Positions 5,602-19,586 of a DNA stretch of 64,000 nucleotides are shown one piece after another. Source of the stretch: Streptococcus oriscaviae (GTDB taxonomy: Bacteria; Bacillota; Bacilli; Lactobacillales; Streptococcaceae). Below the pieces are notes generated by a model, which was not told the DNA's origin, made no database searches, and saw only the letters and a list, made by a program, of their open reading frames with translations. The stretch covers positions 1,798,001-1,862,000 of the forward strand of contig NZ_CP073084.1 of assembly GCF_018137985.1 (NCBI RefSeq), in the 5' to 3' direction. Each line of letters opens with the position of its first letter. Position 1 is the stretch's first letter. Both the position numbers and the translations under genes were made by a program.

Positions 5602-5637
5602 ACAAGGATGCCTAGCTCAAGTTAGCATCCTTGTTTT
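5602..5637 (+). terminator. Terminator of the lac operon
   Basis: ACAAGGATGC at 5602-5611 pairs with GCATCCTTGT at 5625-5634, followed by T residues. Confidence 0.85.
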
Positions 5638-5657
5638 GCAGTTTATCTGTATGTCCT

Positions 5658-5978
5658 ATGTATCAGTCAGAAATCTCAATGTTTCTACGAGGTAGTTCTA
5701 GTCAATCCGCAAAATACAATAAGAAAAGTGGCAAGCCGTATGCGGATATTGATGATTTAGTAGATTTTGGGCGACCTATTCATATAGTGCCTCATATGTT
5801 CCGACATAGTTTTGTTTCAGTTATGGCTGATAAAAAAGTTAGTTTGAATGTTATCCGAGAATTTGTAGGACATTCCGAGGATAGTAAGGAGATAGAGAAA
5901 ATTTATCTTCATGTAATGCAGAAAGGAAAACATAAGATTGAACAGGCTATGATAGATTTAGCAGAAATAATTATTTGA
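5658..5978 (+). pseudogene. C-terminal remnant of a tyrosine recombinase/integrase
   Basis: About 106 residues with the end of a tyrosine recombinase catalytic domain: HMFRHSFVS (the HxxR box), EFVGHSEDS (GH box) and EKIYLHVM with the likely catalytic tyrosine. The N-terminal arm-binding, core-binding and first catalytic-arginine parts are missing, so this is a fragment. It points toward the rpmG-like tail at 6072 and is not part of the intact integrase gene at 6186-7451. Most likely it is left from an earlier element at the same site. Confidence 0.75.
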
Positions 5979-6059: not shown

Positions 6060-6071
6060 CTGTGTGTTGTC

Positions 6072-6092
6072 TTATTTTACTTCAGTAAAGGT
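6072..6092 (-). other. Displaced rpmG 3' tail, candidate left attachment site
   Basis: On the minus strand this reads ACC TTT ACT GAA GTA AAA TAA, that is TFTEVK and stop, the usual end of streptococcal L33. The intact rpmG at 17634 ends IFTEVK stop with synonymous differences. TCAGTAAA (plus strand) is identical at 6082-6089 and 17644-17651 and could contain the crossover. Confidence 0.55.
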
Positions 6093-6161
6093 CTAATAAT
6101 GTCTATTTTAGCGGTTGTAAACCCTGTTAAATCAAGGTTTGAGAACGAGTCGTGTCTAATG

Positions 6162-6180
6162 TGTAGAGAAAAATGTAGAG
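6162..6180 (+). repeat. Left arm-type direct repeat
   Basis: Two TGTAGAG units separated by five bases. The same 19-bp unit recurs in the same orientation at 17520-17538 near the other end with one mismatch. Placed just inside each end, these fit arm-type sites for an integrase with an N-terminal arm-binding domain. Confidence 0.5.
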
Positions 6181-6185
6181 ATAAA

Positions 6186-7451
6186 TCAAGCTGTTAATTT
6201 TGAAACTTTATCAAGATAAATATCCACTGCTCTAAATTTTTGCTTAGGTGCCAATTCAGCATAGGTGTCCATTGTCGTCGTGATAGACTTATGTCCCATT
6301 CTGATTTGCAATTCTTTCCAGTTTGCTCCAGCATTTAACATCAAAGAAGCGTGAGTGTGACGGAATAAGTGAAAACCATAATCAGGCAATCCTAGTGAGG
6401 ACAGGCGCTTCTTGAGTGTAGCACGCTCATTTCTATCGCACATATAGTTTCCATAAATTGTTGGGAAAATTAAATCAGATTTAGGTAAGCCATGTTTTTC
6501 AAAATAAGCATTCATCTCATTGTGAAAATTAACTAAAGTAACAATTATTTCATTAGGAACAGGAATTCGCCTATTTCCAGCGTCGGTTTTTGGAGTTGGC
6601 TTACAAACCATCTCACCCTTTAAACCTAGCTTTATATTTGCCCTTTTCCACATTAGAGTTTTATTTACGACAATTTCATTGGTTTCTATATCTAAATCAT
6701 GAATCTCCAATGCTAGCAATTCATTGATACGGCAAGCTGAAGCAAGTAGGGTGTTGCAAATGACTTTGAACCTACGATTAGCACGTGTATCTGGTAAATC
6801 TGATAAAAATTTTAACCAGTGTGATAAATCTTCATCATGTAGTACCATAATTCGCTTCTTGTTTGCCTTTGGCTTTGGAGGAATTTTGATAGTCAATGCT
6901 GGATTCTTTAACAAACCATAGTTTGTTATCCCAAAGTCAAAAATATCGCTTAACTTATGAGCTACAGCTCCAAAATCTTTTGCCCTTCCTTTTTGAGCTC
7001 GTTTAACGCCAGATTCAACAGATTTTTTAGCTCTATCCGCTAATTCATTAACCCATGATTGAATCTCGGAAGAGGTTATTTTATCAGGGATATAATCGCC
7101 AAAACGTGGAATAATGTAGGTATCAAGATAACCTCTCACACGGTTTAACGTATTATATGACGTAACCCAGCTTTGATAGTTTTTAAACCATTCTTCAGCT
7201 AGTTCCTTCAACGTTGTCACTGTTATAGTCTCTTTTCGAGTAGAGCCATTTTGCTCAAAGTCTAACTTGGCTTGAGTGTATTTTCTGTCCAATTGACGAA
7301 GTGTTTTGGCTGTAATTGATGTTGTAACTTGTTTTCCAGTTTTTTCATCTAAACCAAGGTAAACACCTCGTAAGACATAGTTAGTTTCGCCGTTGTTCTT
7401 AGTTTTTTTGACAACTTTTTTGTTTTTGTAAATGATTGTTTCAGTTTTCAT
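6186..7451 (-). CDS. int: Site-specific tyrosine integrase
   Basis: Recombinase that integrates and excises the element. The 421-residue protein has an N-terminal AP2-like arm-binding region (about 1-75), a SAM-like core-binding domain (about 80-190) and a C-terminal catalytic domain. Catalytic residues are visible: the first arginine in SACRINELLAL, the HxxR box in FHLFRHTHAS, the GH box in RMGHKS and the tyrosine in MDTYAEL. The gene is complete and lies at the left end of the element, reading outward, with the putative arm repeat directly behind its stop codon. It is followed upstream by the excisionase-like and Rep genes on the same strand. Confidence 0.93.
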   Translation of the reverse strand: MKTETIIYKNKKVVKKTKNNGETNYVLRGVYLGLDEKTGKQVTTSITAKTLRQLDRKYTQAKLDFEQNGSTRKETITVTTLKELAEEWFKNYQSWVTSYNTLNRVRGYLDTYIIPRFGDYIPDKITSSEIQSWVNELADRAKKSVESGVKRAQKGRAKDFGAVAHKLSDIFDFGITNYGLLKNPALTIKIPPKPKANKKRIMVLHDEDLSHWLKFLSDLPDTRANRRFKVICNTLLASACRINELLALEIHDLDIETNEIVVNKTLMWKRANIKLGLKGEMVCKPTPKTDAGNRRIPVPNEIIVTLVNFHNEMNAYFEKHGLPKSDLIFPTIYGNYMCDRNERATLKKRLSSLGLPDYGFHLFRHTHASLMLNAGANWKELQIRMGHKSITTTMDTYAELAPKQKFRAVDIYLDKVSKLTA

Positions 7452-7537
7452 AATGCCTCTTCATGCAGATAATGAAAAGGCTAAAATAGACTATCCTCTT
7501 TTCCTAATTAGATGAATCTATTTTAGCACATTCTTAC

Positions 7538-7789
7538 CTAGTTTTCTAAAAAATCAAGTACATCTGATAGTTTATAATATACAGTTCTAGTACCTTCGAT
7601 TGGGGGTTCAAGTCGTGGCAAACCTTTTTTCTCCCAACTTTTCAAAGTATTAGGAGAAATATCTAAGAGAACTAATAGCTCTTTTTGTGTCACAATTCCA
7701 AATGTAGTACGTTGTTTTACCTGTTGCTGAATCAAGCTAACTAGCAGAGTCAGCAGAGTTTCAATATGATTTATTCTTTCAGAGTTCAT
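7538..7789 (-). CDS. Small helix-turn-helix protein, likely excisionase
   Basis: An 83-residue protein with a MerR/excisionase-type winged helix: VTQKELLVLLDISPNTLKSW is the helix-turn-helix and GTRTVYYKLSDVLDFL the wing and following helix. Its position between integrase and Rep is where excision directionality factors sit in Gram-positive integrative elements. The N-terminal 25 residues are a leucine-rich helix that may dimerise. It could instead be a regulator of the rep gene; the sequence alone does not decide. Confidence 0.65.
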   Translation of the reverse strand: MNSERINHIETLLTLLVSLIQQQVKQRTTFGIVTQKELLVLLDISPNTLKSWEKKGLPRLEPPIEGTRTVYYKLSDVLDFLEN

Positions 7790-7852
7790 TTGTATTATCC
7801 TTTTTCTTTTAAATATGAGATAATAACAATAGAGATAGGTTTGTTATTTATC

Positions 7853-9238
7853 TCACTGATTTAGGTCATCACTTTTGCTTTGGTCGGTAGTAGTGATGGC
7901 TTTTTTGCTATCTTGATAAGAAATTTCCCAGTGATTGTTTAAGCGAACAGTTTCAATGAGAAATTCAAGTAAATTTTCAGAGCTCATTTCTTTAGCTGTT
8001 GAGAAATCATAGTCTAATGATACTATAACTTCTTTGTTAGGGATTTTTCTTTGTATTGGAGTATGCTTTCGTTCAGGGAATGAACTACTGTAAATGATGT
8101 TGCCAGAGCTGTCTGTTCGTAGCGTTATGAAATGATTGATTCTCCTGACAAACTGACTGAGGTCTTCATAACCACTATCTTTTGTTTTAAAGAAAAATTC
8201 AAGGGCTGACTTGCTACTTGTGATAATAATTGTTTTGACAGCACCAGAACGATTTTTAAAGCGTGAAGAAATTGGAGAAGCTGTAAAAGGGTCTAGTAAT
8301 TTCAGCCAGTCTGAAGCTGATAGTGCCTGTCCACGAACGTCATCCAGAAGAATAATTTCTTCTCCTCTAACATCATCAAAAGGATTTGTTGCTGCTGTAA
8401 TAACAGTCTCCCAATCCTCTCCATTAACCCTTGATAAGAACTGAAGTTTATGTGCTAGTTCTTTTGCTAGCGTAGTTTTACCCAGCCCAGATGCACCTTG
8501 CAGAAAGATGATAGTTTTTTGAAACAATCCTAATTCTAAATCTTTGTAAGTTTTTAGTGACTTTCGTTCTGCATAGGTCTCGAATGCTTCATTCAACTTT
8601 GATTTATTGAATGCATATATAGCATAAAATTCAGGGTTATTCAGAATCTCATCCTTTTTTATTTTACCTTTGATGATATCCATAATAAGTGCTTCAACGT
8701 CGTTTTTAGCCTGTTTTGAAGTCTTTTTAGCACGTCCCTTCTCCCATGTACGAATTCGCTCATTATAAATTGTTTGATAATCTCTTCCCATTAGAGTAAC
8801 TACTTCTGATGGAGAGTAAAAGAATTTATCAGGTTCTTTGGCATGTATTAGGTAAGACAATAGGTTGTCGTAGGCATACCTTCCAGATTTTGGCTTTTCT
8901 AAATATTGAGTTTCAAGACCTAATGCATTCGCAATTTCAGGTAAAGTAGCTCCTTCAGCAAGTTTAAAAAGAAAATGAACGTGTATCGTTTTTAATACTT
9001 TTTCGTATTCATTGAGTGATGGATTCCAGACTTCGGACCAATCCTTATTATGGATGATAATGTAAGCGTCTGCAACTACTACGATTGTAGAAAGATATTC
9101 TACCATTTTATGGAGTAGTTCTTTTGCATCTCCATCAATAGCTTTTTGGATAAGCTCTTTAGGATAATTTTTCCAAAACTCAAATTCTAATTGTTGTGTA
9201 CCAGCGACTACAGTCAAATTAGATTGTTTTTGTGTCAT
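7853..9238 (-). CDS. rep: HUH-endonuclease/helicase Rep protein (possible relaxase)
   Basis: A 461-residue protein with two domains. The N-terminal part carries an HUH-type metal motif (HVH, residues 86-88) and downstream tyrosines (Y121, Y123, Y129), as in rolling-circle Rep_2 proteins. The C-terminal part is a P-loop helicase with Walker A GASGLGKTT (248-256) and Walker B EEIILLDD (293-300), like the RNA_helicase/SF3-type domain. Streptococcal IMEs are known to use relaxases with this Rep_2 plus helicase layout, so it may start replication of the excised circle, mobilise it, or both. It belongs to the leftward block with the excisionase-like and integrase genes. Confidence 0.8.
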   Translation of the reverse strand: MTQKQSNLTVVAGTQQLEFEFWKNYPKELIQKAIDGDAKELLHKMVEYLSTIVVVADAYIIIHNKDWSEVWNPSLNEYEKVLKTIHVHFLFKLAEGATLPEIANALGLETQYLEKPKSGRYAYDNLLSYLIHAKEPDKFFYSPSEVVTLMGRDYQTIYNERIRTWEKGRAKKTSKQAKNDVEALIMDIIKGKIKKDEILNNPEFYAIYAFNKSKLNEAFETYAERKSLKTYKDLELGLFQKTIIFLQGASGLGKTTLAKELAHKLQFLSRVNGEDWETVITAATNPFDDVRGEEIILLDDVRGQALSASDWLKLLDPFTASPISSRFKNRSGAVKTIIITSSKSALEFFFKTKDSGYEDLSQFVRRINHFITLRTDSSGNIIYSSSFPERKHTPIQRKIPNKEVIVSLDYDFSTAKEMSSENLLEFLIETVRLNNHWEISYQDSKKAITTTDQSKSDDLNQ

Positions 9239-9338
9239 AGTTAAAATCCTTTTCGATAATTATTCTTTTAACTATTCTTGGGTGTACTACTGTTGACAAG
9301 CCCTTTTGTACACCCGTTAGAATAATTAGAGTTAAAAT

Positions 9339-9611
9339 TTACTTGAAAGTTTTGAGTATGTCATCCACTGATACAATGAGTCGTGCTTCAGAAATCTCAA
9401 ACTTTGGACGTTGGCCGAATCCTGATTGGTCAACGAGAGATACCTCATAGATTCCTAATTTAGAGAAGGTAGAGGTAAAAATTTCTTTATTGAAAGGTAA
9501 GAACAGTGTTTTCCAAGCTGGTGCATTGGTTTTGACACAAGATAACCAACCCTCTTTTTTATCTTCTTTATTACTGATACCTAATACTGTTATAATTTCT
9601 ACTTGAGCCAT
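9339..9611 (-). CDS. Small protein upstream of rep, function unknown
   Basis: A 90-residue protein (MAQVEIITVLGIS...) with predicted alternating beta strands and no recognised motif. An in-frame ATG 15 bases upstream (9626) exists, but the ATG at 9611 has a GAGGA site at a good distance. The position, on the same strand just before rep, suggests a role in replication or mobilisation, for instance an auxiliary or single-strand DNA-binding protein. This is inference from context only. Confidence 0.6.
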   Translation of the reverse strand: MAQVEIITVLGISNKEDKKEGWLSCVKTNAPAWKTLFLPFNKEIFTSTFSKLGIYEVSLVDQSGFGQRPKFEISEARLIVSVDDILKTFK

Positions 9612-10112
9612 ATTATTAATCCTCATTTTTTCTTTGTTATTTTTTTAATTAGCTAAACTGAAAAGACATTTTCTCTTGATGAGAGTACAAGTTTAATTTC
9701 AAACGTGAATGATATTTAGACTTTCTTGACGATAAAAAATCAACAGAAACATCTAAATACAAAGTTGTAAAATTAGTTGCTGAACAGTCAAAATTTTAGC
9801 TGTATTTCAGCAAGTTTTTAAATCTTGTATGCTAAGAAAACATCATATGTTGAATACTTTGTTTAATCGTAATTATAAAACAGAAGTTATCACTGAATGA
9901 TAATGCGAGTTCTAGAAAGCACAGCTTGTTGCACTCATTCTGACGCGTTATTTTCTGCGTCTTCACGCAATCGTTCAGACTCGATGCATAACGCTATCTG
10001 CAAAGCAGATTCATTCGTTTCACAATCTATGCTTTCTTTAAACTGCGCATTATTTCATGTCAGCTTTTTCAATTTTATATAATTAATTGATTAAGTCTAA
10101 AGTGAATTCAAC
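9612..10112. other. 500-bp noncoding island between replication genes
   Basis: No convincing gene is seen. The left half is AT-rich and has a near-palindrome around 9778-9812 (GTTGCTGAACAG against CTGTATTTCAGCAAG). The part at about 9900-10060 is richer in GC and full of short inverted repeats, such as TCTGC-AAA-GCAGA and GACGCG...TCTGCGTC. A 61-codon open frame at 9897-10082 looks spurious. The location beside an HUH Rep gene makes it a candidate nicking/replication origin or a structured RNA. Confidence 0.35.
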
Positions 10113-10619
10113 TTATGATAAGTTTTCATAAAGCGAATACAAGATTCTAAGAAACCAGTTGCTGTTAATCCAGTTATAAAAGTTTTTTCTAAGTTCAGCA
10201 TCAACTAATTTTTTACGTTTTTTGTATGTTTGCTGTAGTTCTTTAAGTTGATTTTTTAGCTCGTTAATTTCAGTATCTAAATTGAAAATTTCACTGTCTT
10301 TCAAATCAGCTTTTTCTTCAAACTCCGATTCAAGAGAAGCAATTTCCTTTATCAACTTATCTTTCTTTAACACATAGTCGCTTAAAAATGAATCAAGTTT
10401 CGTGTCTGTGCTTGCGACACGCAATGTGTTTTTGTTCTCACCGATAATAATACCGCTGAATATTGGAGCGTGATTGTTTTCAGAATACGCAACAATTTGG
10501 TAGTTATCATCTAGATTTATTTCAATTCCACCCCGAGTTTTTTTGGTTTCATCCATGTCAAACAGGATGAATTTTCCTAAAAGTTCTGGGACGCCATCAA
10601 AAGTTGGATATATTAGCAT
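10113..10619 (-). CDS. Unknown 168-residue protein with a coiled coil
   Basis: I do not recognise a family. Residues about 1-85 look like a mixed beta domain. Residues about 90-145 are a charged heptad-type coiled coil (from KLIKEIASLESEFEEKADL through the LKNQLKELQQTYKKRKKL region). The C-terminus (about 146-168) is aromatic and hydrophobic (NWFLRILYSLY), possibly a membrane or protein contact. The start is preceded by AAAGGAAC. It is divergent from the 530-residue protein and reads toward the replication genes, so it may belong to the maintenance module. Confidence 0.6.
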   Translation of the reverse strand: MLIYPTFDGVPELLGKFILFDMDETKKTRGGIEINLDDNYQIVAYSENNHAPIFSGIIIGENKNTLRVASTDTKLDSFLSDYVLKKDKLIKEIASLESEFEEKADLKDSEIFNLDTEINELKNQLKELQQTYKKRKKLVDAELRKNFYNWINSNWFLRILYSLYENLS

Positions 10620-10786
10620 AAATTAGTTCCTTTCTTTTTTGGAAAAGCTCCATCTTTTTTTCTACGAAAAAGATGATATCATGTAGTTAGTAGTTATTAC
10701 TTGTCATAATTCAAACCTCACTTTCGTTCTTTGAAGCACTTCTTGAGTCTTAGTTTACAATACTTAAAAAACAAAAGAAATGAGTT

Positions 10787-10850
10787 TTTGAGCGAGTTTT
10801 GAGTATAGCCACAAGTCCTTGTTTGACAAGGGTTTGAGCGTGATTTGAAG
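10787..10850 (+). repeat. Imperfect direct repeat and palindrome ahead of the 530-residue gene
   Basis: TTTGAGCGAGTTTTGAG at 10787-10803 and a similar copy at 10833-10849 (14 of 17 bases equal) flank the perfect palindrome CCTTGTTTGACAAGG at 10817-10831. They lie in the divergent control region between 10619 and 10897 and look like operator or iteron sites. Confidence 0.4.
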
Positions 10851-10896
10851 AAAAGTAGACAAAAATTTTTCACGAAATAAAGGAGTTAAGTGAACT

Positions 10897-12489
10897 ATGT
10901 TGTTTAAAATTTTTGATAAAAAAATTGAGATATCCACAAAAAATATTATGAATAGCTGTTCAAATAGAGATGAATTTTATAAAATCTTAGCTGAGAGAGA
11001 AGAAAGCAGATTGTTTTATGAGTGTCATGTAGTCAATAGAAAAATCTGGTCTGATAATCATCCTTGGAAAATATTCACAGATGAATTGTATAAAGGATTA
11101 GAGATTTCAGAGATAGTTGAGCGCTTAGAATACCATATTAATTCTTCAAATTCAGTTACGGAATTAAAAATGATTTATGAACTTTTACAAGAATGTTTTG
11201 CAAAATTCAAGGTGAACAAGAAAGATAGGCGCTTATTAGAAAATACCGTTTTAAGTTTATATGATAAACTAAATGGATTTTCACAATCTTCTCACCCCGT
11301 TAATGATGATTTTTCAAAGGATGAATATACGCAGACTCAGTATAAAGTATATCTTGAAAATGCAATAGTATTAACGTTAATGTTAATCAATCCTAAAATT
11401 TATTATTCAGTTGATGATATTTTGTATTTCTTTAACAAGGGGTTTCTGCCAACAGGACAGTATATAAGAAGTAGTGTTTTTCCGAATGAGAATATCAGTC
11501 GTTCAAGTATCGACCGTATTATTCAGCAGATTTATGATGAGCTGGACACCATTTTGCTTGAGAAAGTGGTTCAAAATGGAAAAACTTTTTATGATGAAAA
11601 GATAATTACATTAATAGCAGAAAAAAGTCGCAAGTTGCGAAGGTTATCCATTCTCTCGATAGAAACAATTATCTCAGAAGATATTGTTAATTCCATTTCA
11701 AAGGCTACTAAAGTACTTACAGATTTTATATCTGATAAAAATGAGGTGGAAAAAAAGGTTTACAGTCTACTTTCCGATTTATACCTGCCTGTTATTTATG
11801 CTGAAATCCAACAATTTATTTTTCAAAACTTATTAGAAGAATTGAGTAATAATCCAACTCTAGTAATTAGTGAGAGATATTGTGACTTAATCTTGAATAA
11901 TATTAAACAGCAATCTAATGAAGTCTATATGCTGATTGATAGAGAGAAAGTGCTTCTAGATATTGAGCGTATTTACACTTTTATTCAGTGTATGACTTTA
12001 GCAAAAACAGAATCTTTTCGAAAAGAGTTCACAAGTGCCGAGGCTAGTTTGAGAGAATTTGGAGTGTTATCATCAAGTGAGCTGACTAATGTTTTTGAAC
12101 TTTTTAGAGGAAGTAAAAATCAACTGAAGTTTTCCAATATCATTAATTCTTTTACAGAAGAATATCTGTATATTGAAGTTAAAAATGATAGAAGGAAAAT
12201 AAATAGTGTATTTCGTTCGGTGAATATGTTCTTTTTGGATGATGATGAAAAATATAGTCGTGTTCAATATTGGAATAGAAAAATGTTACATGAGCCAACT
12301 AAGATTCAGGTAAGGCAAAATATGGTGTATAGTGAAATAGCAAAGTTGTGTCAACAATACAATAGAGATGGCAATCTCACATCTATAAAATTACCAACTA
12401 ATGCAAATAGGGAGAATTGTATGCTAAAGGAATACATTCCGGAAGGATTATGGGATATGTATGGTATATCAGAAGTCGATTCAAATTAA
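10897..12489 (+). CDS. Large unknown protein (530 residues) of the mobile element
   Basis: No family is recognised and no transmembrane helix or signal peptide is seen. The chain is mostly alpha-helical, charged and lysine-rich. A segment at about 175-235 (SVDDILYFFNKG..., then IDRIIQQIYDELDTILLEKV) could be a winged-helix-like DNA-binding region. The start follows AAAGGAGTTAAG. The gene stands alone on the plus strand, ends in its own terminator and has a divergent control region with repeats. It could be an accessory/defence protein or a regulator; I cannot assign a function. Confidence 0.7.
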   Translation: MLFKIFDKKIEISTKNIMNSCSNRDEFYKILAEREESRLFYECHVVNRKIWSDNHPWKIFTDELYKGLEISEIVERLEYHINSSNSVTELKMIYELLQECFAKFKVNKKDRRLLENTVLSLYDKLNGFSQSSHPVNDDFSKDEYTQTQYKVYLENAIVLTLMLINPKIYYSVDDILYFFNKGFLPTGQYIRSSVFPNENISRSSIDRIIQQIYDELDTILLEKVVQNGKTFYDEKIITLIAEKSRKLRRLSILSIETIISEDIVNSISKATKVLTDFISDKNEVEKKVYSLLSDLYLPVIYAEIQQFIFQNLLEELSNNPTLVISERYCDLILNNIKQQSNEVYMLIDREKVLLDIERIYTFIQCMTLAKTESFRKEFTSAEASLREFGVLSSSELTNVFELFRGSKNQLKFSNIINSFTEEYLYIEVKNDRRKINSVFRSVNMFFLDDDEKYSRVQYWNRKMLHEPTKIQVRQNMVYSEIAKLCQQYNRDGNLTSIKLPTNANRENCMLKEYIPEGLWDMYGISEVDSN

Positions 12490-12493
12490 TATA

Positions 12494-12526
12494 AAAAGGC
12501 GAGCCATTTAAAGCTCGTCTTTCATT
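12494..12526. terminator. Terminator between convergent genes
   Basis: AAAGGCGAGC pairs with GCTCGTCTTT around a short loop, with A and T tracts outside. It can serve both the 530-residue gene and the leftward lipoprotein genes. Confidence 0.75.
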
Positions 12527-12528
12527 TA

Positions 12529-12864
12529 TTATTCTCTCTTCAATTTTACAGTTCCGAAGCCATCTCCACTTACAGTTAAAGTATTTCCTGAAAGAGAATA
12601 TTCAAGCTCTTCTCCTTCTACATTAAATATTTTGTTTTCTTTGTCCACTGTAAAATCTGTGCTAATATTGTCTACAAATAGTGAACCTGAGCCATCACCT
12701 GCTTCAATGCTAAGTGAACCATCTTGCCCATCAATTATTATTGTCATGATACTTCCATCTTCTTCGTAAGTATATGTTCCATCCAGACTTTGATTACTAG
12801 CAGAACAAGCAGTAAGTAACAGTACGGTTGTGAGTGCCAGCAAAAGTGCTTTAATTTTCTTCAT
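12529..12864 (-). CDS. Small lipoprotein, function unknown
   Basis: About 111 residues. A lipoprotein signal peptide is clear, with the lipobox LLTAC at about residues 17-21. The mature part is acidic, glycine-rich and repetitive in beta strands (for example GTYTYEEDGS, TLTVSGDGFGTVKL), similar in style to DUF-type lipoproteins that hold a small beta barrel. Two consecutive ATGs are possible; the second has the better distance to AAGGAG. It is the second gene of a leftward pair with the 340-residue lipoprotein. Confidence 0.75.
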   Translation of the reverse strand: MKKIKALLLALTTVLLLTACSASNQSLDGTYTYEEDGSIMTIIIDGQDGSLSIEAGDGSGSLFVDNISTDFTVDKENKIFNVEGEELEYSLSGNTLTVSGDGFGTVKLKRE

Positions 12865-12890
12865 CATCTTCTCCTTCTCTTCTCCTTCTC

Positions 12891-13913
12891 TTATTCTTCA
12901 TCGTCAACGCTATCTGAAGTTACTTGAACATTGTCAGGTCTCAAATCGTAGGTATCATAAACTAGAGTCACATTTTCGCCGTCTTTTTGCTTTGTGACAA
13001 ACGATGGGAAGCCAATATATTTCACATCATCTACTGATTCTGAAGCAAATTGAGAATAGGCTAAATGTGCAGAGAAAGATTCGTCCTTAATAACATAGGT
13101 ATAATCAATAACATTATCATAGCTAAGTTTTTTGATAGGAATTGTTAGGGTTTCTTCTAGTGTTTCTGCCAAGTCCTCATCAGGTAAAATTTTCAATTGA
13201 TAATCTGACGCTACCTTTTGGTTATATTGGTTTTCAATTTCTGTCAACTTGTCTATTGCTGAAGTAGTATCTTTTCCATCAACCAATTGTCTAAGCGCAA
13301 GTGATACTTTTTCAAAAATAATTTGTTTATGGGCACTAGCCTTTTCAAATGCTTTAGCTTGTTTAATAATTTCATCATCTGATAAAGCTGAAATACTTTC
13401 AAGAGTAAGTGTATCTGGAATCGTAACATCAATTATTCCATCAGCATTACCATCTTCAGTATCGTATTTCTTGATAATATCAATTAGCATTTCTTCAGAA
13501 ATTTTTTCTGCCGTATCTGTTCCATCAAAGCTATCAAAGAAACTTTGTGTATTTCCACCAGCCGAGTAAACATTTTTTCCAACATAGTCAGCTTTAAATT
13601 GTGCAGAAGAAATGGTTGTCTCAGTGTTTGTAGTAGCTTCATAAGAAGTATCATAATAAGTTACTTGATTATCTTCAAAGACATATACTCCCTTGATAGC
13701 TTCTTCTCCGTCGATTTCATACCAGAGCTGGGTAGCTTTTTTGGATTGGTTTATATAGTTTCCGATACTGACTTCTTTTGTTTTTTCAGAAGAAGTTTTC
13801 TCTTGAGAGTGAGAAGTATTTGTGGAAGGTTTGCTGGTATTTGAACAGGCACTCATCAAAGTTAAAGAGGTTAAAAGTCCAATTGTAGTGATAAAAGTTT
13901 TCTTTTTGAACAT
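12891..13913 (-). CDS. Lipoprotein, function unknown (340 residues)
   Basis: The N-terminus is a lipoprotein signal with lipobox LMSAC at about residues 19-23, followed by a serine/threonine-rich linker (about 24-45). The remainder is a soluble acidic domain placed on the cell surface. The segment SIGNYINQSKKATQLWYEI resembles the start of streptococcal and lactococcal lipoproteins of unknown role. It is transcribed divergently from the XRE regulator gene and is followed by a second lipoprotein gene after 23 bases. Plausible roles are surface exclusion or host interaction, but neither is shown by the sequence. Confidence 0.8.
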   Translation of the reverse strand: MFKKKTFITTIGLLTSLTLMSACSNTSKPSTNTSHSQEKTSSEKTKEVSIGNYINQSKKATQLWYEIDGEEAIKGVYVFEDNQVTYYDTSYEATTNTETTISSAQFKADYVGKNVYSAGGNTQSFFDSFDGTDTAEKISEEMLIDIIKKYDTEDGNADGIIDVTIPDTLTLESISALSDDEIIKQAKAFEKASAHKQIIFEKVSLALRQLVDGKDTTSAIDKLTEIENQYNQKVASDYQLKILPDEDLAETLEETLTIPIKKLSYDNVIDYTYVIKDESFSAHLAYSQFASESVDDVKYIGFPSFVTKQKDGENVTLVYDTYDLRPDNVQVTSDSVDDEE

Positions 13914-13950
13914 AAAATTCTCCTTTTGTATGGTTATTTATCTATTGTAT

Positions 13951-14002
13951 CAACAAAACAGACAATGCGCAACACTTTCGTGTGATTTTAGATTGTTTGT
14001 TG
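13951..14002. promoter_or_regulatory. Candidate operator between lipoprotein genes and XRE regulator
   Basis: CAACAAAACAGACAAT at 13951-13966 is complementary, with gaps, to ATTGTTTGTTG at 13992-14002. The inverted pair sits in the divergent promoter region and is a plausible binding site for the regulator encoded at 14053. Confidence 0.4.
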
Positions 14003-14052
14003 TACTTATAGTTGGAGAAAATGGATAGTAGAATAAACGAAAGAGGTGAAAC

Positions 14053-14385
14053 ATGAAACACGACCAATTACAAGAATATATTTCACTTAGAATAAGGGAA
14101 TGTAGAAAAGAAAAAAAGCTTAGTCAAGAAAAATTATCGGAGATGGCTGGGTTAGGTATTAAAGCAATACAAAATATTGAGACTCAAAAATATGATTTTA
14201 AAATTCAAACTCTAGAGAAAGTTATTGGAGCATTAGATATCTCAGTAGAAGACTTCTTTGATTTTCAATTTTCAGAGAATGCTGTATCCTTAGAGACTTT
14301 GAGCAAAAATATTTCAAGTTTATCAAATGAGAAGCAACAAAAGTTAATTTCTTCGTTTAATGAGATTACTAAAAATATGAACTAA
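14053..14385 (+). CDS. XRE-family transcriptional regulator
   Basis: A 110-residue DNA-binding protein. The Cro/C1-type helix-turn-helix spans about residues 8-65 (RIRECRKEKKLSQEKLSEMA, then GIKAIQNIET and LDISVEDFF). The C-terminal 40 residues are a short helical tail, probably for dimerisation. The start follows AAGAGGTG. It is divergent from the lipoprotein genes and just upstream of the kinase operon, so it could control either. A hairpin follows directly behind it, which makes readthrough into the kinase operon at most partial. Confidence 0.88.
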   Translation: MKHDQLQEYISLRIRECRKEKKLSQEKLSEMAGLGIKAIQNIETQKYDFKIQTLEKVIGALDISVEDFFDFQFSENAVSLETLSKNISSLSNEKQQKLISSFNEITKNMN

Positions 14386-14415
14386 AGAGGAATTTGAAGT
14401 AGATTCCTCTTTTTA
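14384..14415 (+). terminator. Terminator after the XRE gene
   Basis: AAAGAGGAAT pairs with ATTCCTCTTT, followed by more T residues. Confidence 0.8.
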
Positions 14416-14467
14416 TATTGTTTAAATGACATTTTTATAAAATTTTACTTGATTGGCAATGAAAAGG

Positions 14468-14497
14468 TTCAATGAAACACTAAAAAGATGTTATAAT
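14468..14497 (+). promoter_or_regulatory. Promoter of the winged-helix/kinase/TIM-barrel operon
   Basis: A TATAAT -10 at 14492-14497 lies 25 bases before the first start codon. The -35 (TTCAAT at 14468-14473, 18-base spacer) is weak, which suggests regulated or low expression. Confidence 0.5.
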
Positions 14498-14521
14498 ATA
14501 CAAGTTAGGAGTTGAGAATAA

Positions 14522-15178
14522 ATGTTTTTAACTGAATTTGAGTTAGTGGATTCGTTTATAAAATTTTCAAAGAAAAACAAAAAATTCTATATTAGAGAAT
14601 TGCCAACAAATTTTGGAAGACCAGATATTATTGAGTTATCAATAAACACGTCGCTATTAGAAAAAAGGCTTCTTAATTCTAATATCCCTCACATACAGAG
14701 GGTAGATACATATATACTTTCTTATTTAAAAGGAAAGTCTTATGTGAAGAAGGAAACAGTTTTACGAAACTTAAATCTAGAATTACCTATTTTAAACTCT
14801 TCTTTAAGTCGGCTAATGAACAGAGATATGATAGATATTGATGGAAATCTCATAAAATTAAAGAGCATTAACGACCTTCTCTTTATTTCTTCTTTATCAG
14901 TTTATGAAGCTAAATTGACAAATTGGAAATATGTTATTGAGCAAGCTGAGCGTCATCTTTGGTTTTCAAATCAGTCTTTTATTTTGTTGCCGGAATTATC
15001 AGAAGATATACAGCAGAAAGCTAAGGAGCTAGCACATAGAAGAGGGGTTGGAGTAGCTGTTACGAGTAACCATAAAATTATTTTTAAAACAAAAAATAGG
15101 AAAAATAAACTAATAAACACACCACTTCTTTGGGAAATAAATGAAGGGATAGTAGATGGAAAATTTAAGATTGAATAA
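14522..15178 (+). CDS. Winged-helix-like protein, first gene of the kinase operon
   Basis: A 218-residue protein of no recognised family. Residues about 60-120 look like a winged helix (QRVDTYILSYLKGKSYVKKE, then LNSSLSRLMNRDMIDIDGNL). The N-terminal part contains FGRPDIIELS, which resembles motifs of nuclease-like or type IV TA antitoxin-like proteins, but the catalytic pattern is not complete. The C-terminal part (about 145-205) has alternating strands and helices. The start has TTAGGAG upstream. The last 23 bases overlap the kinase gene, so the two are translationally coupled and probably work together, perhaps as sensor or target with kinase. Confidence 0.75.
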   Translation: MFLTEFELVDSFIKFSKKNKKFYIRELPTNFGRPDIIELSINTSLLEKRLLNSNIPHIQRVDTYILSYLKGKSYVKKETVLRNLNLELPILNSSLSRLMNRDMIDIDGNLIKLKSINDLLFISSLSVYEAKLTNWKYVIEQAERHLWFSNQSFILLPELSEDIQQKAKELAHRRGVGVAVTSNHKIIFKTKNRKNKLINTPLLWEINEGIVDGKFKIE

Positions 15179-16031
15179 CGATGATTTTTTTAGACTTGTA
15201 TTAGATAAATTGTTTCTTACATATCCGGATTTAGAGATAAATCCTAACCCTATTGGTCACGGTGGTATGAAAACAGTTTATCAAGCTTTCGATAAGAGTT
15301 TAAAGAAGAATTTAGTTATTAAAATAATTAAGTTTACGAGCGATGATGGCGAGAAGAGAACAAAAAGAGAGATTGATATTTTAAAATTATTATCATCAAG
15401 ATATTTTCCAGTAATTTTGGATACTCAGATAGTAAAGATTGGACAGCAAGAAATCTTTATAATTCTTGAAAGTTTTGTCACTGGAAAAACTTTGAGAGAG
15501 TTTAATAAAAGCGGCCTAGCATTTGAAGAAGCTGTTATAATTGGGAAGGAATTACTAGAAGCATTGGCTTTAGTTCACCAAAAAAAATTAGTTCATAGAG
15601 ATGTGAAGCCCGAAAATATAATGATTACAGAAAATGGAGAGTTAGTGTTGTTAGACTTTGGAATCGCAAGAGATTTAACAGATGATTCAATAACTTCTGA
15701 CTTAGCCATTTTTGGGCCGATGACAATTGGTTATGCAGCCCCAGAGCAAGTTGCAAATAAAAAAAAGTTGATTTCGGAGAGAACAGATTTATTTTCATGG
15801 GCTGTTGTATTATATGAACTATTAACAGGAACAAATCCTATAGTACAAGGAGAAATCTCAAAGGAGAGAATTTTACAAAAAACATTAAAACTTTCTCCGG
15901 ATTCGGTTGACTTTAATAATATTCCAGAAGAATTAAAATATGTTATAAAAAAGAATTTATCTCCGGTAGTACATAAACGTTCTAGTTCGGCACTTGAAAT
16001 ATTAGATTTTTTAAAAAGGAAAGGTTACTAG
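15156..16031 (+). CDS. Hanks-type serine/threonine protein kinase
   Basis: A 291-residue cytoplasmic kinase with nearly all catalytic elements: a glycine loop (GHGGMKTVY, 34-42, a degenerate form), the ATP-binding lysine K56 in LVIKIIKF, the helix-C glutamate E72, catalytic loop HRDVKPENIM (147-156), DFGIARD (167-173), and the AAPEQ substrate loop (194-198). There is no transmembrane helix and no PASTA domain, unlike the housekeeping streptococcal StkP/PknB, and no phosphatase neighbour is seen. It ends at about the kinase domain. It overlaps the upstream gene by 23 bases and the next gene starts directly after its stop codon. In mobile elements such kinases are often part of phage-defence systems. 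Confidence 0.9.
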   Translation: MENLRLNNDDFFRLVLDKLFLTYPDLEINPNPIGHGGMKTVYQAFDKSLKKNLVIKIIKFTSDDGEKRTKREIDILKLLSSRYFPVILDTQIVKIGQQEIFIILESFVTGKTLREFNKSGLAFEEAVIIGKELLEALALVHQKKLVHRDVKPENIMITENGELVLLDFGIARDLTDDSITSDLAIFGPMTIGYAAPEQVANKKKLISERTDLFSWAVVLYELLTGTNPIVQGEISKERILQKTLKLSPDSVDFNNIPEELKYVIKKNLSPVVHKRSSSALEILDFLKRKGY

Positions 16032-17231
16032 ATGAGAATGATTTTACAGCAGGGCTACGGCATGATGGCTCTGAATAAAGAATTTTCTGGCAAATACAAC
16101 AATATTGAGGTTATATTGTCTCCGCGAGCTCTGCAATCAGGACAACGGCCTCAAAGATTGAAAGAGCACGCTAATGAAATAAAGAAGAACGGCGGGAAGA
16201 TTTTATTTGACCCGCAATTTTACCAACCAAGGACAAACTTAGATAAAATTTTGAATTTTCCCTACTTTGAACAATTAGATTATAAAACAACTTCATTTAC
16301 TGGTGAAGAAGCAAAGCAATTTTCAAAAAATGTCATCAATTTTCAAAAAAATACATTGGGTGTAGATGAATATATTATTCCAGGAACATTTTCTAACAGT
16401 TTTAGTGAAGATTGGATACAACAACAAGAAGACCTTATGTACGGTGGTTTATCGAGCGATATTGATGGCGTTTTTTATCAGACTATTTCAATTGGAAGTG
16501 ATTTTGTGTTAGACGAGCGGTTTAGCGATTTTATTGGATTTTTAGTTTTATCTAAGGTCGATGGCTACTATTTAACTTTAAGGAAACCAAACGAAGAACC
16601 TTTTGTATCAAATTCAGTTTATTTATACAATCTTTTGGACGCAATACTTAGTCTAAAGTTATCTGGGAAAAAGATTATTATAGGTTATGCTAATCCACAA
16701 GATTTGATGTTTGCATCGGTTGGACTTGATGGGATTGCAACTGGGAACTATCAAAATGTTAGAAATTTTAATCCAGATATGTTTTTTATGGATGAAGAAG
16801 AGTCTATAAAGCGGAGAAGTACTTGGTATTATGATAATAATACGTTCAGTGAGTTTAAACCCGAGCAGCTAGCACTAGCACAGAATAGAGATAAGTTACA
16901 TCTATTCCAGCCTTCAAATGATTATACTGCTGAATATTTGGGAGCAAATCCTATAACGTCATATTTATGGAATGAGAGCATGAATTTTAAGAATTATCTT
17001 TATAGTATGTACTTGAACTGTAATGATATTTCTTCTAGTACAAAAAAATTTAGCTTTGTTGAAAGTATGTTTTTGGAAAAAGAAAAAAATTTAAAAACTC
17101 TTTTTGAGAATGGTATTCGAGAAGGGAATAGAACTTTTAGAGCTGATGCATTTGAAGCTACTTTATCTGCATTTTCTGCAATCAAAAATGATAGAGAGGA
17201 AGATATAGAAGAATTAGAGTTATTGGTCTAA
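16032..17231 (+). CDS. TIM-barrel-like protein, third gene of the kinase operon
   Basis: A 399-residue protein without close family in memory. Regular strand segments suggest a beta/alpha barrel: NIEVILSPRAL (about 24-34), GGKILFDPQFY (54-64), DEYIIPGTF, VDGYYLTLRKP and IIIGYANPQDLMFASVGLD, the last followed by GIATGNYQNVRNF. This barrel-end pattern is reminiscent of the tRNA-guanine transglycosylase superfamily, but no TGT zinc cysteines are evident. The last 60 residues are a charged helical tail. The ATG follows the kinase stop codon with no gap and is preceded by AAGGAAAGG, so it is the third gene of the same operon. It may be the effector, a kinase substrate or a nucleic-acid-modifying enzyme. 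Confidence 0.7.
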   Translation: MRMILQQGYGMMALNKEFSGKYNNIEVILSPRALQSGQRPQRLKEHANEIKKNGGKILFDPQFYQPRTNLDKILNFPYFEQLDYKTTSFTGEEAKQFSKNVINFQKNTLGVDEYIIPGTFSNSFSEDWIQQQEDLMYGGLSSDIDGVFYQTISIGSDFVLDERFSDFIGFLVLSKVDGYYLTLRKPNEEPFVSNSVYLYNLLDAILSLKLSGKKIIIGYANPQDLMFASVGLDGIATGNYQNVRNFNPDMFFMDEEESIKRRSTWYYDNNTFSEFKPEQLALAQNRDKLHLFQPSNDYTAEYLGANPITSYLWNESMNFKNYLYSMYLNCNDISSSTKKFSFVESMFLEKEKNLKTLFENGIREGNRTFRADAFEATLSAFSAIKNDREEDIEELELLV

Positions 17232-17447
17232 GAGAATTACTCATGACAGTTGAAATATTTGTCAAGCTATAATTTGGAAAGATTCTGACTAGATTCAATA
17301 TCAAATATCAATTGAAAAATTAGAATCATTAGATATTGAGGACACCTGATAATCCCAAAGATTTTATCTATACAAAAATAAAAAAACATAAGGTTTGACA
17401 TAATTATAATAAATGAACTATTCCAAATAGTAGAGTTTTTGTTATAT

Positions 17448-17478
17448 AAAAGGAACACCTCATTCGAAGTGTTCCTTT
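17448..17478. terminator. Terminator downstream of the kinase operon
   Basis: AAAGGAACAC pairs with GTGTTCCTTT across an 11-base loop. Confidence 0.75.
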
Positions 17479-17519
17479 CATTATCTGCATGTTCTACTTA
17501 AATTTTATTATCTAAAAAA

Positions 17520-17538
17520 TGTAGAGAAAATTGTAGAG
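17520..17538 (+). repeat. Right arm-type direct repeat
   Basis: TGTAGAG-AAAAT-TGTAGAG; 18 of 19 bases match 6162-6180. Probably an integrase arm site at the right end of the element. Confidence 0.5.
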
Positions 17539-17633
17539 TTTCAATTGATTTGTACTGCAATGTAATGAAAGTTCATCTTTCAAAAATCGCTTAAAATCAA
17601 GGTTTCTACCGCCTATTGACGTGTAGTGAATCC

Positions 17634-17783
17634 CTATTTCACCTCAGTAAAAATCACGTGTTTGCGCAATTTTGGTGAGTATTTTTTCAATTGAAGACGG
17701 TCTGGAGTGTTGCGTTTGTTTTTTGAAGTAAGGTACAAGCGTTCACCAGATTCTTTGTGTTCAAGTGTAATGTTTACGCGCAT
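17634..17783 (-). CDS. rpmG: 50S ribosomal protein L33
   Basis: A 49-residue L33 of the type without zinc cysteines: [18 protein letters not shown] at the start, then [19 protein letters not shown], ending IFTEVK. The gene is complete and is preceded by GGGAGATACC. It forms a pair with rpmF 15 bases upstream. Its 3' end is the integration site of the mobile element: the last codons appear to be supplied by the element, as a second tail copy exists at 6072-6092. Confidence 0.96.
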
Positions 17784-17798
17784 GGTATCTCCCTTCTA

Positions 17799-17981
17799 TT
17801 ATTCAGCTGAAGCTGCTTTTTCGATCTTACGTCCCTTGTAGTATCCTTTCAAAGATACACGGTGAGAACGTGAGTAATCTCCAGTTGTTTCATCAAATTT
17901 CACAGTTGGAGCTGCTACTTTGTAGTGAGTGCGACGTTTGTTTTTCTTCGCTTTTGAGGTGCGACGTGCAGGTACTGCCAT
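17799..17981 (-). CDS. rpmF: 50S ribosomal protein L32
   Basis: A 60-residue L32 ([20 protein letters not shown] ...). An upstream in-frame start would add 20 unrelated residues; the ATG at 17981 follows AAAGGAAA and gives the family N-terminus. It is the first gene of the rpmF-rpmG pair and diverges from hisS. Confidence 0.96.
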
Positions 17982-18031
17982 TTTCTTTATTTTCCTTTCA
18001 AGTGTATGTTTTGGCTTTCGCCAACTGTAAC

Positions 18032-18060
18032 AGTATATCAAAACTTTTTTGTAAAGTAAA
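18032..18060 (-). promoter_or_regulatory. Promoter of rpmF-rpmG
   Basis: On the minus strand, TTTACT (18055-18060) and TATACT (18032-18037) are 17 bases apart, about 50 bases before rpmF. Confidence 0.65.
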
Positions 18061-18179
18061 GTTACTTGACACGATTTTTTTCATTTTTTTGAGAAATAGC
18101 AGAGCATTTATGGTAAAATAAGGAGATTACAAGTGGTCTGGACGAGTGTTTGTTTCAGACTTATATTTCAGAAAGGAAT

Positions 18180-18250
18180 ATGCACAGACAAAACCTTGTG
18201 TAAAAAAACAAACCATACGGAAGATCGAGATGGATACGATTTGTTTTTAC
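18180..18250 (+). promoter_or_regulatory. hisS leader with a short upstream frame and a hairpin
   Basis: A seven-codon frame (MHRQNLV, 18180-18203) has a good AAAGG site. Its end overlaps an inverted repeat, GTAAAAAAACAAA (18200-18212) with TTTGTTTTTAC (18240-18250). No T-box elements (specifier loop, UGGN bulge) were recognised. Role in regulation is speculative. Confidence 0.3.
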
Positions 18251-18281
18251 CTTGCATTCGACATCTGTTGCATTTTAAACG

Positions 18282-19586
18282 ATGAAACTTCAAAAACCAA
18301 AAGGAACTCAGGACATTCTTCCGCAGGAGTCTGCCAAGTGGCAGTACGTGGAAGGTTTTGCGCGCAAGCTTTTTGCCCAATACAACTATGCGGAAATTCG
18401 CACGCCCATTTTTGAGCACTATGAGGTCATCAGCCGCTCCGTTGGGGATACAACAGACATCGTGACAAAGGAGATGTACGATTTCTACGATAAGGGCGAC
18501 CGCCACATCACCCTTCGTCCAGAAGGAACAGCACCAGTTGTCCGCTCTTATGTGGAAAACAAGCTCTTTGCCCCAGAAGTGCAAAAACCCTCTAAATTCT
18601 ACTATATGGGCCCTATGTTTCGCTACGAGCGTCCGCAAGCAGGTCGTCTGCGCCAGTTCCATCAGATAGGGGTGGAATGTTTCGGCTCCAGCAATCCAGC
18701 GACCGATGTGGAAACCATTGCAATGGCCTACCAGCTATTTGAGGAGCTGGGGATCCAGCAAGTTACCCTCCACCTCAACAGCCTGGGCAATCCAGAGAGC
18801 CGCGCAGCTTATCGCCAAGCTCTGATTGATTACCTCACTCCGCTCAAGGACCAGTTATCTAAGGACAGTCAGCGCCGCTTGGAGGAAAATCCTCTTCGTG
18901 TCCTAGACTCTAAGGAAAAAGAAGACAAGCAGGCGGTGGAGAATGCTCCCTCTATTTTGGATTATCTGGATGAGGAAAGCACCGCTCACTTTGAAGCGGT
19001 CAAGTCCATGTTGGATAATCTGGGGATTTCCTATGTCATTGACAGCAATATGGTGCGCGGTTTGGACTATTACAACCACACCATTTTTGAGTTTATTACC
19101 CAAGTAGCAGATACCGAGCTGACGATTTGTGCGGGTGGTCGCTACGATGGTTTGGTAGAGTATTTTGGCGGGCCTGCCACGGCTGGTTTTGGCTTTGGGC
19201 TAGGGATTGAACGCCTTATTCTGGTTCTTGACAAGCAAGGAATCAGCCTTCCACTAGACACCCAGTTGGATGTTTACATTGCAGTCTTGGGTCAGGAGGC
19301 CAATAGCGGAGCGCTGGAGCTGGTTCAAGCTTTACGCAGACAAGGATTTAAAGCCGAACGTGATTATCTGGATCGCAAGCTCAAGGCCCAATTTAAATCA
19401 GCAGATGTTTTCGGCGCAAAATGTATCATTACGTTGGGGAGCAGCGAAATCGAGACAGGTCAGGTGCTCGTTAAAAACAACCAGACCCGGACACAGCTGG
19501 AAACAAGCTTGGCCCAAGTAAAGAGCGATTTCCAAACAATTATGGATCAATTAGCTGAGTCTAAGATAAAAAAACTTCTCCTCTAA
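18282..19586 (+). CDS. hisS: Histidyl-tRNA synthetase
   Basis: Class II aminoacyl-tRNA synthetase that charges tRNA-His. The 434-residue protein begins [14 protein letters not shown] and shows motif 2 ([17 protein letters not shown]), the histidine-specific box [11 protein letters not shown] and motif 3 ([11 protein letters not shown]); the C-terminal 100 residues are the anticodon-binding domain. An in-frame stop lies two codons before the ATG, so this start is fixed, yet there is no clear Shine-Dalgarno sequence in front of it, which is unusual for this genome. It is followed by a strong terminator. Confidence 0.97.

Follow-up and report, generated by a model that had tools for sequence, protein, structure and literature searches.

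A mobile three-gene cassette in Streptococcus oriscaviae with a predicted nuclease, a Ser/Thr kinase and a transglycosylase-fold barrel: a candidate defence system

Three proteins encoded by one operon

The window analysed here is a 64,000-nucleotide stretch of the Streptococcus oriscaviae genome (contig NZ_CP073084.1, positions 1,798,001 to 1,862,000 of the forward strand), and it contains an operon of three genes that encode a PD-(D/E)XK nuclease-fold protein, a Hanks-type Ser/Thr kinase and a (beta/alpha)8 barrel of the tRNA-guanine transglycosylase (TGT) type, referred to below as genes 1 to 3 or, together, as the cassette (Table 1). The initial annotation had described three overlapping or abutting genes with a weak promoter of their own beside the attachment end of an integrated element, and this description holds: genes 1 and 2 overlap by 23 bp, the spacing between genes 2 and 3 is 0 bp, and a repeat of the rpmG 3' end lies just to the right of the operon. 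To call the promoter weak is fair, as a perfect TATAAT and an AGGAG site 10 nt upstream of the gene 1 ATG are accompanied by a poor -35, and a scan for consensus promoters listed none at this site, where an acceptable -35 is missing.

Table 1. Features of the cassette and of the element that carries it (positions are those of the window)
Feature	Position	Strand	Remark
Left attachment repeat	6072..6089	-	15/18 bases equal to rpmG 3' end
Tyrosine integrase of the element	6186..7451	-	adjoins left repeat
Upstream HTH_3 regulator	14053..14385	+	also adjoins the operon in S. cristatus
TATAAT -10 element, weak promoter	14492..14497	+	read from sequence; no good -35
AGGAG ribosome-binding site, gene 1	14507..14511	+	read from sequence
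Gene 1, PD-(D/E)XK nuclease-fold protein, 218 amino acids	14522..15178	+	open reading frame and motif
Winged-helix (MarR-like) insert, gene 1, about residues 60-119	14699..14878	+	limits approximate
Gene 2, Hanks-type Ser/Thr kinase, putatively soluble, 291 amino acids	15156..16031	+	catalytic residues intact
Gene 3, TGT-fold (beta/alpha)8 barrel, 399 amino acids	16032..17231	+	
rpmG (ribosomal protein L33)	17634..17783	-	3' end 17634-17651 is the right attachment repeat

Gene 1 had been annotated as winged-helix-like. The winged helix is indeed present, but it is an insertion into a PD-(D/E)XK nuclease, between the Asp strand and the ExK strand. The protein has the core fold of this superfamily together with an Asp/Glu-x-Lys catalytic motif (E5, D35, E129-x-K131 and Q141), and all of these residues (K131 included) are invariant among 24 aligned rows. 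The motif is retained in relatives without the insert, which is missing at two other loci (L049 and L051) and in the second copy at L050, where relatives of gene 1 lie in tandem on the minus strand (9915-10625 and 10669-10929), one with the insert and the other, of 86 amino acids, without it. Judged from its sequence, gene 1 encodes a PD-(D/E)XK nuclease into which a winged helix has been inserted; the protein is predicted to cleave DNA and is the likeliest effector of the cassette. Against PDB sequences its profile gave a best E-value of 0.073 (MarR), and a gene-1 protein bearing the name S. dentapri is 96% identical.

The product of gene 2 matches PF00069 over residues 32-279 (E = 9.3e-40) and has the Lys, C-helix Glu, HRD Asp/Asn and DFG Asp of Hanks-type kinases, with Lys56, Glu72, Asp149, Asn154 and Asp167 invariant in 19 aligned cassette kinases. 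No Pfam match to a PASTA domain was found in it, in agreement with the intact core and missing PASTA domains noted earlier, and an identity with the PASTA kinase PknB/Stk1 was rejected, as the score against NCBIfam NF033483 (161.8 bits) is far under the cut-off of 450. Among PADLOC models, taken without PADLOC cut-offs, PD-T4-6 matches best (E = 8.7e-50, kinase domain), with mad6 close behind at 4e-48; these matches say that the protein is a kinase, not to which defence system it belongs.

The barrel encoded by gene 3, previously likened to the transglycosylase superfamily, now has a strong fold match to the TGT-type (beta/alpha)8 barrel. D60, P66, P117, Y180, G238 and N242 are invariant, and Asp60 and Tyr64 fall, by position, at Asp102 and Tyr106 of TGT, of which the Asp assists the chemistry and the Tyr stacks on the 7-deazaguanine base. 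However, the barrel differs from bacterial, archaeosine and QTRT1/QTRT2-type TGTs in its lack of the nucleophile Asp, the zinc cysteines and a PF01702 match. Position 236, equated with the nucleophile Asp280 by aligned range and strand order, is Ala or Thr in 138 of 141 rows and Asp in none; as for the CxCxxC zinc site, the same 141 rows have no conserved cysteine column; and a Pfam search up to E = 1 gave no hit for the protein, nor did any TGT model match it. In true TGTs (16 sequences from 17 loci, L085 being left out because no TGT motif was found), D[ST]GG[FY]Q and CxCxxC are each present in 16/16 and the nucleophile-strand pattern in 14/16. The best E-value of the barrel profile against PDB sequences was 0.33. 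The barrel thus apparently lacks the TGT nucleophile and zinc site, which fits a sensor or regulator better than the effector on tRNA or nucleotides that the initial annotation had suggested; and because the base-holding positions are kept and the nucleophile lost, a reader is a better fit than a writer. It could be argued that such a reader senses anticodon damage or the modification state of tRNA in infection, with the cassette responding by nucleic-acid cutting, since the nearest solved folds act on tRNA and the host has a single ordinary tgt. This is quite unlikely, as the zinc module that helps TGT to hold tRNA is not conserved, and gene 1, which usually carries a winged helix, resembles DNA-cutting enzymes.

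Linkage and distribution of the cassette

Searching genome contigs with the barrel profile yielded 26 loci, among them loci in Streptococcus, Exiguobacterium, Cohnella, Clostridia, Ignavibacteria, Limnoglobus, Deltaproteobacteria, Dechloromonas, Variovorax, Aeromonas and an Actinomycetes metagenome-assembled genome (MAG), and, assigned to archaea, on a haloarchaeal plasmid (Natribaculum) and a 3-kb contig binned as Aenigmatarchaeota, although MAG bins can err. With the window, one IMG/VR contig and ten loci from further genomes, 38 loci were tabulated (L042 was left out as the same locus as L002), and in 35 of them the barrel open reading frame (ORF) is full length (at least 381 amino acids); the others are fragments at L044 and L052 and a 147-residue barrel at L051 that has kinase and nuclease as neighbours. 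In 35/35 full-length loci the kinase gene immediately precedes the barrel gene on the same strand, as two ORFs in L011 and as a 186-residue ORF in L028, and 33/35 have a match to gene 1 no more than 3.5 kb away, in L048 only as a 52-residue piece at a contig end. Gene 1 was not found in L008, which starts inside the kinase, or in L013, where the upstream stretch examined has no ORF of at least 80 amino acids. When barrels more than 80% identical are merged, 29 loci remain.

Three gene orders occur: nuclease-kinase-barrel (20 loci), kinase-barrel with a convergent nuclease (11) and kinase-barrel-nuclease (2). The fixed order of kinase and barrel, with their overlapping or near-abutting genes, suggests that these two act together, and the varying position of the nuclease gene suggests a separate effector. 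Consistent with joint inheritance, protein-tree distances over 25 loci correlate at 0.776 for barrel and kinase, 0.863 for barrel and nuclease and 0.661 for kinase and nuclease, values reached in 0 of 2000 permutations for each pair. Low dN/dS (nonsynonymous to synonymous rate) ratios against S. cristatus, 0.17 for gene 1, 0.10 for the kinase and 0.03 for the barrel, show that selection maintains all three proteins, most strictly the barrel. The three genes are inherited together, and linkage, tree agreement and purifying selection place the operon beyond chance. The joint occurrence that the initial annotation had wanted checked is therefore seen across many genomes; the genes are not unlinked elsewhere, and the proteins do not fall into housekeeping families.

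The gene-1 profile matched in 10 of 12 genomes searched; every match that spans the catalytic half is located at the cassette, and the remaining ones cover the winged helix. The cassette is rare and patchy, found in 4/245 genomes of the family and 9/398 of the phylum (own genome and fragments counted), and two plasmid records carry it. The one IMG/VR contig, L028, is a putatively viral contig of 157 kb and the source of the 186-residue kinase ORF. Although two of the three families are unnamed in the libraries searched, the set has been conserved among distantly related bacteria, and it provides a three-gene signature for proteins now annotated as 'hypothetical protein' or 'MarR family transcriptional regulator'.

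This distribution bears on the idea of a toxin-antitoxin-like addiction module, in which a nuclease toxin would be checked by kinase and barrel and the cassette would mainly stabilise mobile elements. Such a module would agree with overlapping genes, plasmid copies and carriage as cargo of an integrated element, but in 11/35 loci the nuclease gene is read in the opposite direction and in 2/35 it was not found, and conservation is strictest in the barrel; an addiction module is thus very unlikely.

A proposed sensor, switch and effector

The reading preferred here, with a probability of about one half, is that of a mobile three-gene immune cassette with the barrel as sensor, the kinase as switch and the nuclease as effector. 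By context and analogy, the cassette probably protects against viruses or other foreign DNA in a way not described so far. The barrel, which may act with the kinase as sensor, is expected to bind a guanine-like base, a nucleotide or a nucleic acid without exchanging a base, because the pocket Asp and Tyr are kept and the nucleophile and zinc site are lost. Ligand binding during infection would switch the kinase, the kinase would phosphorylate the nuclease or something restraining it, and phosphorylation would free the nuclease to cut foreign or host DNA. The three-component defence or abortive-infection system of the initial annotation stands as a linked three-gene system, and its defence role and abortive-infection mode are proposed from context and analogy. 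That earlier view is partly supported by the active-looking kinase, the mobile setting and known defence genes near the cassettes of several relatives.

The neighbours were taken as 202 ORFs from 24 of the 38 loci, 160 scanned in pools and 30 singly (picked mostly by size). Pooled scans matched 189 and 50 PADLOC families at 1e-10, not tied to loci. Scanned singly, 9/30 neighbours matched at 1e-20, in 9/19 loci: type IIG enzymes (L012, L015), a methyltransferase (L014), PDC-S28 (L043), HmaC (L045), LmuB (L050), a type I methyltransferase piece (L049), a type I specificity subunit (L018) and a helicase-type protein with partial matches (L017). On the Natribaculum plasmid (L015) all three cassette genes stand beside the type IIG-like enzyme.

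Several observations weigh against the sensor-switch-effector reading. In 10 of the 19 singly examined loci no protein tried matched PADLOC, and 134 control ORFs, taken from 11 stretches chosen at random (one 210-base piece left out), also matched 33 PADLOC families at 1e-10, among the matches listed DpdF, SspA, DndA, PsyrT, mad2, mad3, mad8, C3a193, BrxHI, AriA and RtcR-type proteins, most of which we regard as look-alikes with housekeeping functions; the 25 control families listed of the 33 include no restriction-modification subunit and no Hma protein. Because pools hide the number of matching ORFs and controls also match, the enrichment of defence genes near the cassette is qualitative only. 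None of the phage records carries the cassette. The mapping of barrel residues onto TGT uses aligned ranges and strand order, and the barrel profile did not match the true-TGT profile at default settings or at two of three further settings; the remaining one (-shift 0.1) gave E = 0.0013 and probability 18 with residues 99-227 in register, and is treated as weak. Finally, signalling from kinase to nuclease is a proposal, and the ligand, phosphorylation and phage-protection steps are hypothetical.

Stk2 of Staphylococcus epidermidis and PD-T4-6-type kinases belong to the same Ser/Thr kinase superfamily as gene 2 and act as single kinases, whereas the nuclease and the TGT-like barrel are constant partners of the cassette kinase, and these two partner genes argue against a PD-T4-6-like stand-alone role. 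Stk2 acts against phage according to a review. A restriction endonuclease with a Ser/Thr kinase is a known defence pairing in PglW of type 2 bacteriophage exclusion (BREX) and in some DndF proteins; in defence, PglW and the kinase-bearing DndF resemble the cassette by joining a restriction endonuclease (NERD) to a Ser/Thr/Tyr kinase and to winged helices. They differ in being one large multidomain protein in big operons with a NERD-family nuclease, and a TGT-like barrel, which the cassette has, is not among the parts described for them in the sources consulted. CapK/CapS with VapC resembles the present proposal in that a kinase controls a nuclease in immunity, but CapK is like anti-sigma-factor kinases rather than Hanks kinases and the nuclease is VapC-like. 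Neither the three-gene set nor a TGT-like barrel in such a role appears in the sources consulted on kinase/nuclease defence.

Dpd (DpdA) and the TGT of BREX-related capture systems likewise place a TGT-fold protein in a defence locus. DpdA is described as a working enzyme that inserts a base and has partner genes, whereas the cassette barrel lacks the nucleophile and a TGT-model match; membership in Dpd was rejected, as no Dpd model matches gene 1 or gene 3 and the barrel nucleophile position is lost. A Dpd-like restriction-modification system, in which the barrel would modify a host DNA base by non-TGT chemistry, the nuclease would cut unmarked DNA and the kinase would tune the balance, is consistent with a TGT-fold barrel beside a restriction-type nuclease, with the strict conservation of the pocket residues and with the insertion of a 7-deazaguanine base into DNA by DpdA, Dpd's TGT homologue. 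It is nevertheless unlikely, given Ala/Thr at the nucleophile position and unconserved zinc cysteines, and no constant fourth enzyme was seen in the tabulated loci, where no search was aimed at 7-deazaguanine synthesis genes.

It is possible, if doubtful, that the barrel sensor is a disarmed TGT that reads a guanine or 7-deazaguanine base, for example in 7-deazaguanine phage DNA or in infection-altered nucleotide pools, and relays this via the Ser/Thr kinase to the PD-(D/E)XK nuclease. Some phages hide their DNA with 7-deazaguanine-type bases, and, if true, such a sensor would be kinase-relayed immunity against a modification that some phages use to escape restriction. If the cassette is a defence, prokaryotic immunity gains two parts, a soluble kinase relay and a TGT-fold pseudoenzyme, and whether bacteria sense 7-deazaguanine-type bases becomes a testable question. 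No membership in a known system was found in the libraries searched (PADLOC of 2023), and no description of the cassette or of a kinase/TGT/nuclease defence was found in the literature searched, with bioRxiv and DefenseFinder outside the scope. The parts belong to known superfamilies; for the combination and the barrel family, an architecture whose function is predicted, these searches found no described counterpart, and if every kinase-gated nuclease were counted as one kind, the cassette would be a variant of that kind.

The integrated element at rpmG

The operon is, by its sequence context, the right end of an element of about 11.6 kb in rpmG, because rpmG-end repeats flank it and a tyrosine integrase lies near the left repeat. 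The repeat search pattern was built from the two 18-bp sites, and the chance figure of 0.02 expected is thus not independent. The HTH_3 (helix-turn-helix) regulator upstream is not shown to belong to the cassette; a terminator-like hairpin (14384-14412) lies between it and the operon, with terminator-like sites at chance level (1 found versus 1.1 expected), and no Rfam model matched in 13000-18500. Elsewhere in the element, a Rep-like protein with Rep_OBD (PF01719) and an AAA/superfamily 3-type helicase part (7853-9238, minus strand) suggests that the element has its own replication protein. A 530-residue protein (10897-12489, plus strand) has no match in Pfam, PADLOC, NCBIfam or PHROGs, and two neighbouring lipoprotein-like genes (12529-13913, minus strand; signal sequences by eye) have no significant family.

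The barrel of S. cristatus S22 is 98% identical, and the S. cristatus locus (L002) matches window positions 13953-18112 at 93% identity over 4.2 kb, with hisS just beyond at 75%. Its 17 kb have no match to window positions 6060-13952 (integrase, Rep and other genes), and the HTH gene and operon have therefore moved recently and separately from the present integrase and Rep. This comparison also bears on the possibility that the cassette serves integration or excision of the element itself, with gene 1 acting like XisH-type excision factors: as the S. cristatus copy is without those element genes, and as the cassette is found in widely differing contexts, this is highly improbable.

A C-terminal piece of a second tyrosine integrase (5631-5978, plus strand) lies immediately left of the element, and with the S. 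cristatus comparison this hints at successive insertions at rpmG. Decayed barrel-gene remnants occur in two other genomes, at L044 (8591-8764, plus strand) and L052 (2428-3092, plus strand), one of them near the same ribosomal-protein genes. The barrel-gene remnant of another Streptococcus (G135) lies less than 1 kb from an rpmF-type match.
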